Shown one piece after another: positions 15,486 to 22,858 of a stretch of 22,858 nt of DNA. The position numbers and the translations under genes were made by a program. The first letter of the stretch is position 1; every line of letters starts with the position of its first letter. Source of the stretch: a virus; the IMG/VR virus record IMGVR_UViG_3300035162_003288, positions 1 through 22,858 of that record. One strand, written 5' to 3'. The notes under the pieces were generated by a model that searched no databases, was not told the origin of the DNA, and saw only the letters and a list, made by a program, of their open reading frames with translations.

Positions 15486-17780
15486 ATGGCTCAAAGTTAT
15501 ACACGACAAAGCACGTTTGCAGATGGCGATACAATTACTGCCTCATTATTTAACGATGAATATAATCAGCTACTAAATGCTTTTGCATATTCTAGTTCGT
15601 CTGCGTCTTCTACAGGCCACAGACATGATGGCACTGCTGGACAGGGTGGCAATATTCCTACTCTTGGTGATTTAGATTTTTTAAATAAGATCACAGTAGA
15701 TGGCACTAATAATCGCATAGGTTTCTTTGTAGAAGTCTCTAGCAGTGCCGTAGAGCAGGTTCGTATTCAAGATGGAGCAATTGTACCTGTCACAGACAGT
15801 GATATAGATTTAGGAACAAGCTCTCTTGAGTTTAAAGATTTATATATAGATGGTACAGCCTATGTAGATGCTATTAACTTTAATGGTACTGCTATTACTT
15901 CAACAGCCGCAGAACTTAACATTCTTGATGGTGTAACATCTACTGCGGCTGAATTAAATTTAATAGATGGTTCAAGTGCTGGAACAATTGTAAATTCTAA
16001 GGCAGTTGTTTATGGGTCAAGTGGTGAAGTTAATGCTACAACGCTTCAAATTGCTGGAACATCTATTACATCTACAGCGGCAGAACTAAACATTTTAGAT
16101 GGTGTAACTTCTACGGCGGCAGAGCTTAACATCCTTGATGGTGTAACATCTACAACGGCTGAACTTAATATCCTTGACGGTGTAACAGCCTCAACCGCTG
16201 AATTAAACATTTTAGATGGCGTAACTTCTACGACGGCAGAGCTTAATGCTTTAGACGGTATTACAGCCGTTGTAGGAGAACTAAATGCTTTAGACTTAGG
16301 CAGTACCGCAGTAGGCACAGCAATTGCTTCTAAAGCTGTTATTCTAGATTCAAACAAAGATTATACAGGCATAAGAAATCTTACTATAACAGGTGATTTG
16401 ACCATTGGAGGTGATGACCTTGTTATGGGAACAAACACTGCTGGTCATCTTCTTATTGCAGATGGAACAAACTTTAATCCTACAGCCGTAGGAGATCTTT
16501 CAGCAATATCAACAGTCGCTAATGATGATGTTTTTCTAGCGGTTGATACTTCTGGAGGAGGACTTAAAAAAATAACTAGAAGTACCTTGGTTGCAGGACT
16601 AGCAACATCAAGCGCCTTATCAAATGTAGTAGACGATAGCTCACCACAATTAGGTGGGGACTTAGACATTAATGGAAACGGTTTAGTTTCTACGTCTAAT
16701 GGAAATATTGCTTTAACACCTAACGGAACTGGTGTTGTAAGGATTGATGGTAATGTAGATATACAGACAGGCGAAATTGTTTTAAAGAATGGTGGCTCTG
16801 TATCTAACATTAAGTTTTATTGTGAGTCTAGTAACGCACACTATACACAGCTTCAGTCAGCCGCACATAGCGCATACAGCGGTAATGTAACACTAACACT
16901 ACCTGCGTCTACTGACACTCTACTGGGTCGTGCAACAACAGATACATTAACTAACAAAACTTTAACATCTCCTAAAATAAATGAAGATGTAGCAGTTACT
17001 GCGACAGCTACTGAACTTAATCTTCTTGATGGAGTTACAAGTACTACAGCAGAACTCAACATTCTTGATGGGGTGACCAGTACCGCCGCAGAACTTAACA
17101 TCTTAGACGGTGTAACATCTACTGCGGCAGAATTGAATTTATCAGATGGCTCTAGTGCAGGAACTATTGTAAACAGTAAGGCTGTTGTGTACGGATCCTC
17201 TGGTGAGGTTAATGCAACTACCTTACAGATTGCTGGAACATCTATTACATCTACTGCCGCAGAACTCAACATCTTAGACGGTGTTACTAGTACCGCCGCA
17301 GAATTAAACATTCTTGATGGTGTTACATCTACAGCGGCAGAGTTAAATATACTAGACGGCGTTACTTCTACAACGGCAGAGCTAAATATTCTTGATGGTG
17401 TGACATCAACTGCCGCAGAGCTAAATCTTCTTGATGGCTATACTGATGTGGGCTTTAAAAATGTACCTCAAAACAGCAAGAGTGCTAATTACACATTAGT
17501 TATTGGAGATTCCGGTAAACATATATTTCACCCTGTAGGTGATAATAATGCTAGAACCTTTACTATACCTGCAAACAGCTCAGTTGCTTATTCTATTGGG
17601 ACAGCTATTACATTTATCAATATGGCCGCCGCAAACGTAACGATTGCTATTACAAGCGACACTATGTATTTGTCTTCCGCAGGAACAACTGGTTCACGGA
17701 CTTTGGCCCAGTATGGATCAGCAACAGCAATAAAAATTACAGACACAAATTGGTTGATTTCAGGAAGCGGATTATCATGA
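15486..17780 (+). CDS. Tail fibre with 13-residue AELNxLDG repeats
   Basis: 764-aa protein with AGGAG six bases before ATG. The N-terminal part (YTRQSTFADGDTITASLFND, then GHRHDGTAGQGGNIP) is probably the virion-attachment domain. Two arrays of a 13-residue unit (consensus STAAELNILDGVT) follow, at about residues 138-272 (8 copies) and 504-654 (9 copies), separated by a beta-rich region with NLTITGDLTIGGDDLVMG and HYTQLQSAAHSAYSGNVTL. The C-terminus (residues 655-764) is a distinct beta domain and the likely distal end. Such repeats would form an extended trimeric fibre. A 63-residue block (161-223) is repeated identically at 554-616. Similar 'TAAELNxLDG' fibres are known from marine phages. 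The stop overlaps the next start by four bases. Confidence 0.85.
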   Translation: MAQSYTRQSTFADGDTITASLFNDEYNQLLNAFAYSSSSASSTGHRHDGTAGQGGNIPTLGDLDFLNKITVDGTNNRIGFFVEVSSSAVEQVRIQDGAIVPVTDSDIDLGTSSLEFKDLYIDGTAYVDAINFNGTAITSTAAELNILDGVTSTAAELNLIDGSSAGTIVNSKAVVYGSSGEVNATTLQIAGTSITSTAAELNILDGVTSTAAELNILDGVTSTTAELNILDGVTASTAELNILDGVTSTTAELNALDGITAVVGELNALDLGSTAVGTAIASKAVILDSNKDYTGIRNLTITGDLTIGGDDLVMGTNTAGHLLIADGTNFNPTAVGDLSAISTVANDDVFLAVDTSGGGLKKITRSTLVAGLATSSALSNVVDDSSPQLGGDLDINGNGLVSTSNGNIALTPNGTGVVRIDGNVDIQTGEIVLKNGGSVSNIKFYCESSNAHYTQLQSAAHSAYSGNVTLTLPASTDTLLGRATTDTLTNKTLTSPKINEDVAVTATATELNLLDGVTSTTAELNILDGVTSTAAELNILDGVTSTAAELNLSDGSSAGTIVNSKAVVYGSSGEVNATTLQIAGTSITSTAAELNILDGVTSTAAELNILDGVTSTAAELNILDGVTSTTAELNILDGVTSTAAELNLLDGYTDVGFKNVPQNSKSANYTLVIGDSGKHIFHPVGDNNARTFTIPANSSVAYSIGTAITFINMAAANVTIAITSDTMYLSSAGTTGSRTLAQYGSATAIKITDTNWLISGSGLS
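15897..16304 (+). repeat. First 39-bp fibre repeat array
   Basis: Eight in-frame copies of a 39-bp unit encoding variants of STAAELNILDGVT, interrupted after copy two by a 34-residue insert (SAGTIVNSKAVVYG...). Copies differ mainly at third codon positions, and the last two have diverged in sequence (STTAELNALDGIT, AVVGELNALDLGS). Confidence 0.85.
16995..17445 (+). repeat. Second 39-bp fibre repeat array
   Basis: Nine in-frame copies of the same unit, interrupted after copy four by the same SAGTIVNSKAVVYG insert as in the first array. The insert and its flanks encode the same residues as the first array, with many different codons. Confidence 0.85.
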
Positions 17781-18609: not shown

Positions 18610-19110
18610 ATGAGACTTTTTATACAAGTTCAGGACGGGATTTCGGTTGATTATCCGTGTTATGAAGACAATTTGATTCAGGCTTATGGGGAAGTTCCCG
18701 CAGGCTGGGAGCTTTTTGTACGCACCCCAGAACCGACTCCAACTGCGTATGAAGTACTGTCACCCGGAAATCCTACAATTGAAAGGGTTGATGGTGTTTG
18801 GACTGATGTTTGGCCTATTCGCTCCATGACTACTGAAGAAAAACTAGCAAAACAACAAGCGGTAAAAAACGAGTTTGCTCAACGCGAGCCTTCTTTAAAC
18901 TGGGCTACATGGACATTTAATGAAAACACTTGCGAGTATGAACCGCCAACTCCTTTTCCTGAAGAAAACGAAGAAAAAATTAGGGCAGGGGTATTTTTGG
19001 CTTGGCACGGTGCAGAAAATAACTGGAAAGATACGCCAGCTAGGCCACAAGACGAAAAAACTTACAAGTTTGATTATTCTGCGTGGACATGGGTGGAAGT
19101 AACAGAGTGA
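18610..19110 (+). CDS. Hypothetical 166-aa protein, possible fibre chaperone or tip partner
   Basis: ATG 18610 with GGAG five bases upstream. The protein begins MRLFIQVQDGISVDYPCYED, then has an aromatic and Pro-rich part (GWELFVRTPEPTPTAYEVL), a helical middle (MTTEEKLAKQQAVKNEFAQR) and a Trp-rich end (WATWTFNENTCEYEPPTPFP; KTYKFDYSAWTWVEVTE). This order, with an 'MRLFI...' start and repeated 'W.W....Y.P' units, recalls small proteins placed after tail fibre genes, some of which act as fibre assembly chaperones. I cannot name the family. It overlaps the next gene by four bases (GTGA). Confidence 0.65.
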   Translation: MRLFIQVQDGISVDYPCYEDNLIQAYGEVPAGWELFVRTPEPTPTAYEVLSPGNPTIERVDGVWTDVWPIRSMTTEEKLAKQQAVKNEFAQREPSLNWATWTFNENTCEYEPPTPFPEENEEKIRAGVFLAWHGAENNWKDTPARPQDEKTYKFDYSAWTWVEVTE

Positions 19111-19760
19111 AACAAGCGCAAAATACCTGCCTTGAAGTTGCGGCATACTTCCCTTGCCTGATTCATTCGATTGAACGTCCTGATTTTTTGCCGATGGTTT
19201 CGGAAGTTTCAGAAGAGTATTTGGCTTTTCAACATAAAAAGCGCCAGTCGGATGAAAGCTCTTTGGTGATGATGAGCGGTAGCTACTATGATGATTCTCG
19301 CATTGTCGAGTTTACTAATTTTGTGGGATCAACAGCGTGGAACATTTTGAGCGAGCAGGGCTATGCTATGCAGGATAAACTTGTGTGGTTTACTGAAATG
19401 TGGACACAAGAACACCATAAACATTCTACTATGGATCAGCACGTACATGGATATAATTCACAGATTGTTGGGTTTTACTTTTTAGAGACTCCAAAAAATT
19501 GTTCACATGTAGTTTTTCATGATCCTCGTGCAGGTAAAGCTCAAATTGACCTGCCAGAAACGGACATATCGCAAGCCACAGCGGCCAGTAAAATGATAAA
19601 CTTTGAGCCAAAACCCGGCCTAATGATTTTTACTAATTCGTGGTTAGCCCATTCGCTTAGTCGACATGCGGCAGACAGGCCCATTAAATTTGTACATTTT
19701 AATATGACTGTGCAAACGGCGACTCCGCAGTTTGATGCGCCTGTTGCGGAGGTGGTGTGA
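19107..19760 (+). CDS. 2OG-Fe(II) oxygenase-like protein
   Basis: I place the start at GTG 19107 (GTGA overlap with the previous stop), with GGAAG seven bases upstream; an ATG at 19083 is also in frame. The 217-aa protein has an H-x-H motif (H112, H114) in QHVHGYNSQIVGFYFLETP, a VVFHDPR strand (about 135-141), a distal His in GLMIFTNSWLAHSL (H182), and an Arg (R191) in RPIKFVHFN. This is the order of a double-stranded beta-helix oxygenase of the type with HxHxxS (2OG-FeII_Oxy_5-like), using iron and 2-oxoglutarate. The substrate is unknown; position after the tip gene suggests a protein or surface glycan of phage or host. The usual HxD/E second ligand is not clear here. Confidence 0.7.
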   Translation: MKQAQNTCLEVAAYFPCLIHSIERPDFLPMVSEVSEEYLAFQHKKRQSDESSLVMMSGSYYDDSRIVEFTNFVGSTAWNILSEQGYAMQDKLVWFTEMWTQEHHKHSTMDQHVHGYNSQIVGFYFLETPKNCSHVVFHDPRAGKAQIDLPETDISQATAASKMINFEPKPGLMIFTNSWLAHSLSRHAADRPIKFVHFNMTVQTATPQFDAPVAEVV

Positions 19761-20037: not shown

Positions 20038-20946
20038 ATGAAACGATTGTTAGTTATTACTGCGTGTTTATTGTGGCCTGTCTTGTCTCTGGGAGAGGAG
20101 ACAACGACGAATATAGATACAACATCGTCATCTACAAGCACCAGTGACAACAATAATCAAAACACTAATATTAATACGACGACCTACACAGGTGAATCTA
20201 CGAACACTAACGTAAGTACAAACACAAATTTAAATACAAATACAAATGTAAATACGTCAGTAATAGACTCAACCTCCAACGCAAACAATACTAATCTTAA
20301 TCAAAATATTAACACGACCGATTATACTGGGGTGTTAACAAACATTAACACCAACACTAATAATAGCACTAATACTAATAGCAACACCAATAACAACACT
20401 AATACATCGGTCAGTACGGCTACTAACATCAACCAGAATTCAAACACTAGCAACAGTGTCAATCTAACGACATCTGACACAACTATCAATCAGACAAGTA
20501 ACTCTACGTCAGACGTTAATTCGACTAACAATAATGTGAACAACAATAATAACAACAGTAACTCCGTAAGTACATCAACTCAGAGAGTTACGCAGGATAT
20601 AAACTCGCCTCCACCTAGTGCAATAGCTCCTAGCATTGGTAGCTCTTATTCTCAAGACTTATGTACAACAGGAATTTCTGGCGCAGTACAGACGCAAATA
20701 CTTGGATTTTCTACGGGTAAGTCTGTAAGAGATAAGAATTGTGAAAGGATTAAGTTAAGCAAGACTCTTTACGACATGGGAATGCGCGTAGCGGCTGTAA
20801 GCCTTATGTGTCAAGACTATAGGGTTTGGTCGTCAATGATGGATGCTGGAACACCTTGTCCAATTGAAGGGCAGATAGGTGACGAAGCTAAGGCTTTATG
20901 GTCAAAGTATACTGATCGTGTACCCCGTAAAGAAAGGGGAATGTAA
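20038..20946 (+). CDS. Exported Asn/Thr-rich repeat protein with four-cysteine C-terminal domain
   Basis: 302-aa protein. Residues 1-19 (MKRLLVITACLLWPVLSLG) form a clear signal peptide. Residues about 22-180 are almost entirely Asn, Thr, Ser and a few Val/Ile. They contain a duplicated unit of roughly 45 residues that begins NINTTTYTGESTNTN (about 44-58) and returns as NINTTDYTGVLTN (about 90-102). The alternating N-x-N pattern resembles curli-like beta-solenoids in texture only. After a Pro hinge (SPPPSAIAPSIG, 190-201) is a compact C-terminal domain with Cys at 209, 235, 258 and 274, including GISGAVQTQILGFSTGKS and NCERIKLSKTLYDMGMRVA. It is followed one base later by a second exported protein. 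Function unknown; an exported or virion-surface role is inference. The N/T bias could also reflect a linker or spacer. Confidence 0.75.
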   Translation: MKRLLVITACLLWPVLSLGEETTTNIDTTSSSTSTSDNNNQNTNINTTTYTGESTNTNVSTNTNLNTNTNVNTSVIDSTSNANNTNLNQNINTTDYTGVLTNINTNTNNSTNTNSNTNNNTNTSVSTATNINQNSNTSNSVNLTTSDTTINQTSNSTSDVNSTNNNVNNNNNNSNSVSTSTQRVTQDINSPPPSAIAPSIGSSYSQDLCTTGISGAVQTQILGFSTGKSVRDKNCERIKLSKTLYDMGMRVAAVSLMCQDYRVWSSMMDAGTPCPIEGQIGDEAKALWSKYTDRVPRKERGM

Positions 20947-20947
20947 G

Positions 20948-22783
20948 ATGAAGAGGCTTGTTAGCGCAATATTTGTATTTTACGCATGTGCTGGATATGG
21001 ACAGGCGCAAACCTCAACCAATTTGTTAGGTTCTCCTACAACGTCAATTAATATTTTGTATAACGAAGGCCAAAACAGTTATCAGTATAGTTATCAAACT
21101 GGGCAAGTAACGGCATCCGGGCCTTTGCCACAGTATGACCCCTTGCAGATACTGACTTTAAGTTGGTCGTTTGACGCGCTCATGAACTGCAACAATTCTA
21201 TTGGTGGCTACTGCGACGATCCAGATGGCACAGAAGATGAACTATCTGCATTTCTTGAGGTAGACAATTCACAGGGTGACGTTGATGCGCGGAACGTGTT
21301 TTCTACACAGGGTTACTCTACAGAGTGGCAGACGTTTAGTGGCAGTGAAACCTACGACTTTAGCAGTGCTTACGAAAACGTAAACTTTAGAATAGAAGGT
21401 AGAGATAGAGGATACTGGGCTGGATTTTACGGACCTAGAGTCAGAAATCCCTCGGTGGTGGCTATATACACCCCTATAAATACTGGGACTACTATTGTTT
21501 CTACTTGCAGTACCTCTCAAAATGATCTGTCTTGTGGTAATTATGAAAACAATATTACTGTAGAACAGCCGGTAATAGTTGAAGAGCCACAGCCTCCAAC
21601 CTTTGGAGAGCAAGCAACAAATGTAGTTTTTGGAGATTCCCCTGACGATTTTTTGTATTTAGATCAACCTGATTCTACCGGCAAGCCAAAGATAATAAAG
21701 CATATAGAGTCTCATCAGGCTCATCAAAACATGTCGCAAGAAACAGGAATGTTTGAATTACCTCTTGAACAAGACATGCTACGAATAAATGGTGAGCCTT
21801 TTGTGCCTAAAGATTCTGTGCCAGCACCAGAGGTTACACAAACAACAGAAATAAAAAAAGAGCCTGTTTGGGTTCCAGAAACAAGAAAAATGAGGTTTGC
21901 TGAACCAGAAGAAATAATTGCCGAAGTAGAAAGGGTAACAAAAGAACCGCGCCCTCAAGGCGCTCGCGTACAGGAGGCTGTTAAACCAGAGCCGGTTTTT
22001 GCAGAGAGGAGAGTAGTTCCTGTAGAGGTTGTTGCAGAAACACGGGCACAGCCAATTGAAGAGGCTATAAATACAGTGGTAAGGCCGACTGTTGATGTAG
22101 TTGGAATAGCTTTATCTCTTGTTAATCAACAGACAGATCAAACAAAAAGAGCATTAAACAACCCACAACAATACCAAACAATGCAACAAATGAATCAAGG
22201 CAAAGGCGAAGTAAGTCTAAATCAAACAGAAAAAATTAATTACTGGGACTTTACAACAAAACAAACTCAAGTTTTACAGACTTTAGCTCAACAAACTCAA
22301 CAGCAGGTAAACACTACGACTTCTGTTGATTCAGCGCCTCCAGCACAAGCTCAGTTTGAAGATGACTTTAATGATGCGATTGCTACTGGGCAAAGTGTAG
22401 GGCAGTTTTTAAGCGCGCAACCACCAGACTTTAGCCGCTTTGATGTAGATGAGCCAAGCGTTCAAGAGCAAAAGCTGATGAAGAAGGCAACCGTAGCCCT
22501 GAAAACCATGAGCGAGGTGCAGATTGACAAGAGCATGGATCAGCAGTTAGAAACTTTATCAGATACAGGCGGGTTTACAGACCAAAGTATTACTGTGTTT
22601 TTAATATCTAGCAATCCTTCTTTTAACCAATATCAGGATATAAATCTTTCTGATCGTGAAGAATTTTATAAAAGCACTCAGGTTTATCCAAAAAACATTC
22701 CACGGGTTGATCCTCTTGGTGTGTTACGACTAGGTGGATCAGAAACATTTAACAACTTGGTGGATATTCAATGGCAGAGGTAG
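20948..22783 (+). CDS. Exported 611-aa protein, unknown function
   Basis: Starts one base after the previous stop at ATG 20948. The N-terminus (MKRLVSAIFVFYACAGYGQA) is a signal peptide with possible cleavage near residue 21. Residues about 25-180 look like a beta-sandwich with YQTGQVTASGPLPQYDPLQI, SWSFDALMNCNN and YCDDPDG, and further Cys at 187 and 196. Residues about 205-370 are Pro/Glu/Val-rich and probably extended (VEQPVIVEEPQPPTFGEQA; EPVWVPETRKMRFAEPEEII). Residues about 400-470 are Gln-rich and possibly helical. The C-terminal part (about 500-611) has MKKATVALKTMSEVQIDKSM and a terminal RVDPLGVLRLGGSETFNN. I recognise no enzyme motif. It looks like a multi-domain surface or periplasmic protein acting with the Asn/Thr-rich protein. 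Confidence 0.75.
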   Translation: MKRLVSAIFVFYACAGYGQAQTSTNLLGSPTTSINILYNEGQNSYQYSYQTGQVTASGPLPQYDPLQILTLSWSFDALMNCNNSIGGYCDDPDGTEDELSAFLEVDNSQGDVDARNVFSTQGYSTEWQTFSGSETYDFSSAYENVNFRIEGRDRGYWAGFYGPRVRNPSVVAIYTPINTGTTIVSTCSTSQNDLSCGNYENNITVEQPVIVEEPQPPTFGEQATNVVFGDSPDDFLYLDQPDSTGKPKIIKHIESHQAHQNMSQETGMFELPLEQDMLRINGEPFVPKDSVPAPEVTQTTEIKKEPVWVPETRKMRFAEPEEIIAEVERVTKEPRPQGARVQEAVKPEPVFAERRVVPVEVVAETRAQPIEEAINTVVRPTVDVVGIALSLVNQQTDQTKRALNNPQQYQTMQQMNQGKGEVSLNQTEKINYWDFTTKQTQVLQTLAQQTQQQVNTTTSVDSAPPAQAQFEDDFNDAIATGQSVGQFLSAQPPDFSRFDVDEPSVQEQKLMKKATVALKTMSEVQIDKSMDQQLETLSDTGGFTDQSITVFLISSNPSFNQYQDINLSDREEFYKSTQVYPKNIPRVDPLGVLRLGGSETFNNLVDIQWQR

Positions 22784-22858
22784 AGTTTGCGGGACTAAAA
22801 ATATCAGGCGGTAAGTTACTGCTCGTAATACCGTTGTTGGGTAGCATCTTAGCCGCCA
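22771..22858 (+). CDS. Membrane protein (N-terminus only)
   Basis: Begins at ATG 22771, overlapping the previous gene by 13 bases, and runs open off the window edge. The visible 29 residues start MAEVEFAGLKISGGKLLLVI and continue into a hydrophobic PLLGSILAA, the beginning of a membrane helix. It is probably a small membrane protein of the exported cassette. GGTGG 13-9 bases upstream is a weak SD. Confidence 0.6.
   Translation, partial: MAEVEFAGLKISGGKLLLVIPLLGSILAA

Follow-up and report, generated by a model that had tools for sequence, protein, structure and literature searches.

Among the described systems closest to the locus studied here are the two-component spanins (lambda Rz/Rz1), whose i-spanin sits in the inner membrane, contains coiled coils and uses its C-terminus to bind its partner (PMC6139136). 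Of the phages surveyed, about 13%, including many marine ones, lack a recognisable spanin, and other membrane topologies have been suggested as possible spanins (PMC6139136). Moreover, pelagiphages are known to carry phage-borne curli systems (PMC9599517). The cluster PHROG_20531 holds gene A of the present locus and its relatives, including one from phage phiAxp-2; it is a cluster name only, with no function or partner genes described. Lastly, DUF2730, which we take to be the releasin family of Mu gp25, comprises small proteins that resemble the third gene of our locus in having one transmembrane segment (TM). The three-gene cassette described below (A-B-C) is a concrete candidate for the means by which spanin-less phages breach the outer membrane. 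We found no description of this trio in the open-licence papers searched; its carriers include phages of the most abundant bacteria in the ocean, yet it has been given neither name nor function.

The window, i.e. the whole stretch of DNA analysed, is an IMG/VR virus record, linear and 22,858 bases long, whose + strand encodes terminase, portal, major head and tail proteins. A-B-C lies at the end of the tail genes and on the same strand, as in many relatives, and tail-fibre genes are found closely upstream both in the window and in its relatives. The features are as follows.

20038..20946, + strand: gene A, 302 aa, N-terminus MKRLLVITACLLWPVLSLGEETT...
A, residues ~1-20: signal peptide
A, residues 21-185: Asn/Thr/Ser-rich region, 75% Asn+Thr+Ser
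A, residues ~191-199: Pro hinge PPPSAIAPS
A, residues ~200-302: four-Cys C-terminal domain
20590..20943, + strand: conserved domain of A, modelled with AlphaFold2 as a beta hairpin and four helices
20948..22783, + strand: gene B, 611 aa, N-terminus MKRLVSAIFVFYACAGYGQAQ...
B, start: signal peptide, followed at about residues 35-180 by a lectin-like beta-sandwich
B, motif: C-x5-D-x2-C-x2-Y-like
B, linker: long, disordered, Pro/Glu-rich
B, C-terminus: conserved, helical, ending LVDIQWQR
22771..22858, + strand: gene C, first 29 residues only, MAEVEFAGLKISGGKLLLVIPLLGSILAA; the contig end cuts the gene

These coordinates confirm the earlier note, in which two adjacent genes for exported proteins were placed one base apart with a membrane-protein gene overlapping the second. 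The single base between A and B is 20947. The ATG of C at 22771 gives a 13-base overlap with the end of B, and a TM begins within the 29 visible residues. The record stops within the cassette, and no endolysin, holin or spanin was found among the scanned window genes. Elsewhere in the window, a probable tail-fibre gene (15486-17780) contains 39-base tandem repeats giving TAAELNILDGVTS units, and a 2OG-Fe(II) oxygenase (19083-19760; PF13759, E 1.1e-10) lies two genes 5′ of A.

The architecture first noticed in A, namely an Asn/Thr/Ser tract with a duplicated unit, a Pro hinge and a four-Cys C-terminal domain, was borne out in every part. The unit NINTT[TD]YTG is present at residue 44 and again at residue 90; the mature protein contains exactly four Cys (209, 235, 258, 274), all of which are invariant in an alignment of 54 sequences; the hinge is nearly invariant among the same relatives. 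Many A proteins end in an additional hydrophobic segment. By a crude rule used in place of SignalP, which bears on the signal peptides proposed earlier, 67/72 A proteins carry an export signal compared with 317/1575 (20%) background ORFs from the same loci. Neither A nor B has an acceptable lipobox. The helical part of the A domain is mostly modelled at pLDDT >90; the fold has no PDB match by sequence search or Foldseek, and its structural matches among viruses are uncharacterised proteins only. A belongs to PHROG_20531 (E 2.1e-12), of unknown function, and a weak, below-cut-off Pfam match to Nuc_deoxyri_tr3 was taken as chance. A codon comparison with five relatives places the A domain under purifying selection (dN 0.07-0.10, dS saturated). 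A distant A-like protein is encoded by Achromobacter phage phiAxp-2 (L200, 44598-45155, - strand; PHROG_20531, E 1.4e-5). It has a signal peptide, an Asn/Ser-rich composition and a Cys-rich end, and its gene adjoins that of another exported protein, rich in Gly and Ala; this pair is not part of the late structural block.

Relatives of B are usually a single gene of 250-1000 aa between A and C, with exchangeable N-terminal domains and a conserved C-terminal pattern (..FY..IY..Q..DN.R.LR.L....M[VI].xQY). The same five-relative comparison shows purifying selection on the B C-terminus (dN 0.12-0.18 vs dS 1.6-1.8) and a weaker constraint on the linker than on either this C-terminus or the A domain. 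The model of B has low confidence overall (mean pLDDT 48.5). The best Foldseek matches of its beta-domain are sugar-recognition domains (Fbs1, E 2.5e-5; CBM22, E 1.2e-3), and matches to tail-fibre domains are weaker (E 4e-4 and above), ranking below them. A weak Pfam match to Ly49 fell below the cut-off and was taken as chance. In some cassettes several small exported proteins lie between A and C, and in one variant B is split into four proteins, most of them exported. By eye B2 and B3 of this variant look pilin- and chaperone-like, and a Csu-type pilin/chaperone was suspected; searches of Pfam and PDB sequences gave no match and did not confirm it. Three exported proteins related to B2, B3 and B4 also occur in Vibrio phages pVp-1 (L119, 5139-6445) and Brizo (L120) and in 50 T5-like Vibrio records, where they and a small lipoprotein lie directly 5′ of a holin and an M15 endolysin and are unnamed in the records.

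In its closest relatives C has 156 aa and ends ILDNPLN(T/D)EE. Members of the C family have one N-terminal TM, a coiled coil that gives coiled-coil profile matches, and an NPL motif near the C-terminus that is invariant in 27/27 aligned members. The family thus has the predicted build of an i-spanin (inner-membrane, N-terminal TM, periplasmic coiled coil), which is read from the relatives, the window C showing only the start of the TM. PHROG spanin matches of C reached only E 0.001-0.03 and were taken as coiled-coil bias. Unlike the releasins, the MedDCM gene C and four others have no Pfam match to DUF2730, leaving the DUF2730 annotation in MedDCM unsupported. Other annotations of the trio are misleading too: C is called 'lysozyme' in two roseophages, A 'OmpA family protein' in CRP-810 and B 'tonB' in ctXG6705 (the entries concerned being CRP-207 gp73, CRP-810 gp51 and gp53, ctXG6705 UOF77515 and MedDCM BAQ94058).

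With A as tblastn query, matches were confined to the C-terminal domain and came from nine annotated phages that belong to unrelated groups. Six are pelagiphages, the myovirus Mosig among them; the others are a spring podovirus, a T7-like (Autographiviridae) virus and roseophage CRP-207. A second query added ct7L0027 and CRP-810. The trio is present in SAR11 podo- and myoviruses, roseophages and a T7-like virus, and its cultured carriers include HTVC202P, HTVC033P, HTVC023P, HTVC115P, Baldr, Mosig, CRP-207 and CRP-810. Scanning IMG/VR with the A domain alignment gave at least 598 confirmed matches on contigs of 4 to 300 kb, and at least 600 matches were listed for each of the scans with A and with C; the trio is shared by phages, marine as well as freshwater and unrelated to one another, that number at least in the hundreds. 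Matches in genome_contigs are short, come mostly from MAG contigs of scattered phyla and are most likely phage sequence.

The earlier note had asked whether the three genes always travel together. Of the 75 A loci followed by 3.5 kb or more of sequence, 70 have a C gene (N-terminal TM and NPL/NPM in the last 16 residues) that was detected automatically 0.6-4.7 kb downstream. Inspection traced four of the remaining five to gene-calling problems and recovered C in each, so that only L113 lacks it. Reciprocally, A is present at 40/40 C loci with enough upstream sequence (39 by pattern, L193 by eye). A and C are obligate partners, and C, beyond what had been proposed from the window, belongs with A and B as one unit; about a hundred loci show the same arrangement, which is therefore not due to chance.

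Like the two-component spanins, C has one N-terminal TM, a predicted periplasmic coiled coil and a conserved distal end, it has a partner with a Pro-rich stretch and Cys, and the genes are compact, overlapping and near endolysin or terminase in several lineages. Unlike spanins, the trio has no lipoprotein partner and no significant match to the Rz family (PF03245 over cut-off in 0/56 carrier records), C has two exported partners, one of them large with a sugar-binding-like domain, and some carriers have a spanin-like pair as well. The trio cannot be filed as a spanin because it has neither lipoprotein nor family match, and it may work like one nonetheless.

Gene position was examined for a link to lysis. 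In HTVC202P and Baldr, A-B-C immediately precedes terL, and in a T7-like MedDCM phage it sits between tail fibre and terminase, two small genes ahead of terL; the region between tail fibre and terminase is where T7 carries lysis genes. A relative of the window (L013) has the order A-B-C-holin-lysozyme-terL, and in another group (L030) the genes after C encode a 2-TM protein and a GH19 endolysin. In 20/37 records an endolysin is found no more than 5 kb from A, against 10.5 expected (naive P 0.0008), and with one vote per A-identity cluster the value becomes P 0.03-0.13; the linkage, strong at first sight, is weak once relatedness is corrected for. A distance of 12-28 kb separates A from the recognised endolysin in HTVC115P, CRP-207, HTVC202P and Baldr, and in some carriers the trio is found away from the tail genes.

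No lipobox gene was called in 14/15 complete or long carrier records (HTVC202P, Baldr, MedDCM-S28-C10, ctXG6705, HTVC033P (1-50 kb) and 9/10 further carrier contigs), whilst 6/6 positive controls were detected; these 14 therefore have no recognisable o- or u-spanin. In HTVC202P and MedDCM, A and C are the sole proteins of 70-230 aa with a single N-terminal TM. The SAR11 phages HTVC010P, HTVC019P and HTVC011P, taken as controls, carry no trio and likewise no lipoproteins, and thus the absence in carriers is not specific. Moreover, an o-spanin-like lipoprotein (phrog_456; 8/56 records at E <1e-5) occurs in freshwater T4-like carriers, in three of them beside the endolysin upstream of A, and some of these carriers have this lipoprotein, an Rz-like protein and the endolysin directly 5′ of A. 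In such phages the trio does not simply stand in for a spanin, and the idea that it replaces spanins, since no lipoprotein is present, is weakened by both the controls and the carriers with spanin-like pairs. The T4-like carriers also have two recurrent, unnamed genes 3′ of C (L079 8861-9519, L043 9625-10175, L076 9369-10098), one for a small, usually lipobox-bearing protein with YRYPCQ(N/D)P(D/S)NW...CPE and one for a 2-TM protein (phrog_25359).

Taken together, the trio probably builds a structure across the host cell envelope late in infection, as suggested by gene position, the i-spanin build of C and the 14/15 carriers without a lipobox gene. It may help its carriers, most of which lack recognisable spanins among those scanned, to exit the cell. 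We tentatively propose a spanin-like complex without a lipoprotein that spans the envelope and aids disruption of the outer membrane. The N-terminal TM of C would fix it in the inner membrane, from which its coiled-coil rod would reach into the periplasm and could offer an invariant tip (NPL) as docking site for the conserved C-terminal domains of both A and B. A and B would be exported via Sec with their variable parts pointing outward, which in A is a long Asn/Thr/Ser chain and in B a sugar-binding-like beta-sandwich carried by a long, flexible linker. By binding wall or outer-membrane glycans the complex would bridge the two membranes and aid in breaking the outer one as holin and endolysin act. 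The evidence favouring a role in release is circumstantial, and lysis is the best single explanation, not an established one, because of the trio-less controls without lipoproteins and the T4-like carriers with an o-spanin-like one. A broader view, which we consider somewhat doubtful, is that rod, Cys-rich adaptor and glycan-binding arm form a class of lipoprotein-free trans-envelope lysis machine common to unrelated aquatic podo- and myoviruses of Gram-negatives, and explain part of the 'spanin-less' problem. Under the lysis reading the trio joins the phage envelope and lysis complexes; should it fail, the trio is an unclassified envelope system.

The main rival, rather unlikely in our estimate, is superinfection exclusion or surface masking, in which A and B, anchored by C, would sit at the infected cell's outer membrane, either on its surface or beneath it, and prevent other phages from adsorbing or delivering their DNA, or keep progeny from adhering to debris. 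Variable outer parts (the Asn/Thr region of A, the exchangeable domains of B) on conserved anchoring ends would suit this, as would the lectin-like domain, the coexistence with spanins and the distance of the cassette from the lysis genes in several phages. It is opposed by the place of A-B-C at the end of the tail genes, on their strand and not in an early block, by the adjoining terminase or endolysin in several lineages, and by the lack of likeness to known proteins in Pfam or PHROGs. The same anatomy could serve an envelope stabiliser or lysis timer that tethers the inner membrane to the wall or to the outer membrane and postpones bursting until progeny suffice. Full spanin-endolysin sets in some carriers would leave room for such a role, to which we give a slim chance, the lysis timers known to us being small holin/antiholin proteins.

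Two further readings concern the nature of A and B themselves. The earlier note's view of an exported, undescribed set stands as regards the signal peptides, the absence of an enzyme motif, the lack of any Pfam family that fits A, B or C and the PHROG of unknown function; its suggestion of a pore is without support, and that of a curli-like fibre fails. Pelagiphage curli systems (CsgGF, CsgA/B; type VIII secretion) do resemble the trio as phage-encoded exported proteins of SAR11 phages and as a multigene cassette spread over different phage families. They consist, however, of different genes: A and B have no Pfam curlin match and CsgG occurs in 1/56 carrier records, which also disposes of a curli identity for the trio. 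A secreted fibre or adhesin of another kind, aggregating infected or neighbouring cells like the 'sibling capture' proposed for phage curli, would draw on the repetitive region of A, the multi-gene variants with several small exported proteins and the existence of curli-bearing pelagiphages (PMC9599517). We consider it quite unlikely, given these curli results and a cassette without an outer-membrane export pore. That A and B are ordinary tail proteins of the virion whose N-termini merely resemble signal peptides is very unlikely, despite the tail-fibre genes close upstream. The excess of export signals in A over background, the TM of C, the Cys-rich A domain and the occurrence of the trio away from tail genes all argue against it, and a host-envelope role fits A and B better. 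The searches proposed in the earlier note, by profile and structure with the C-terminal domain of A and with B, led to no well-characterised lysis or tail family, and neither A nor B matches a known tail family in Pfam or PHROGs. No virion proteome of a trio carrier was found in the open-licence papers searched.

Lastly, another one-TM coiled-coil protein is encoded in pelagiphages HTVC010P (25223-25940), HTVC019P (38973-39338) and HTVC115P (L002, 9836-10403; phrog_20984), the last of which has both this protein and the trio. A small gene follows it in HTVC010P and HTVC115P, and the two are possibly an analogous envelope pair.
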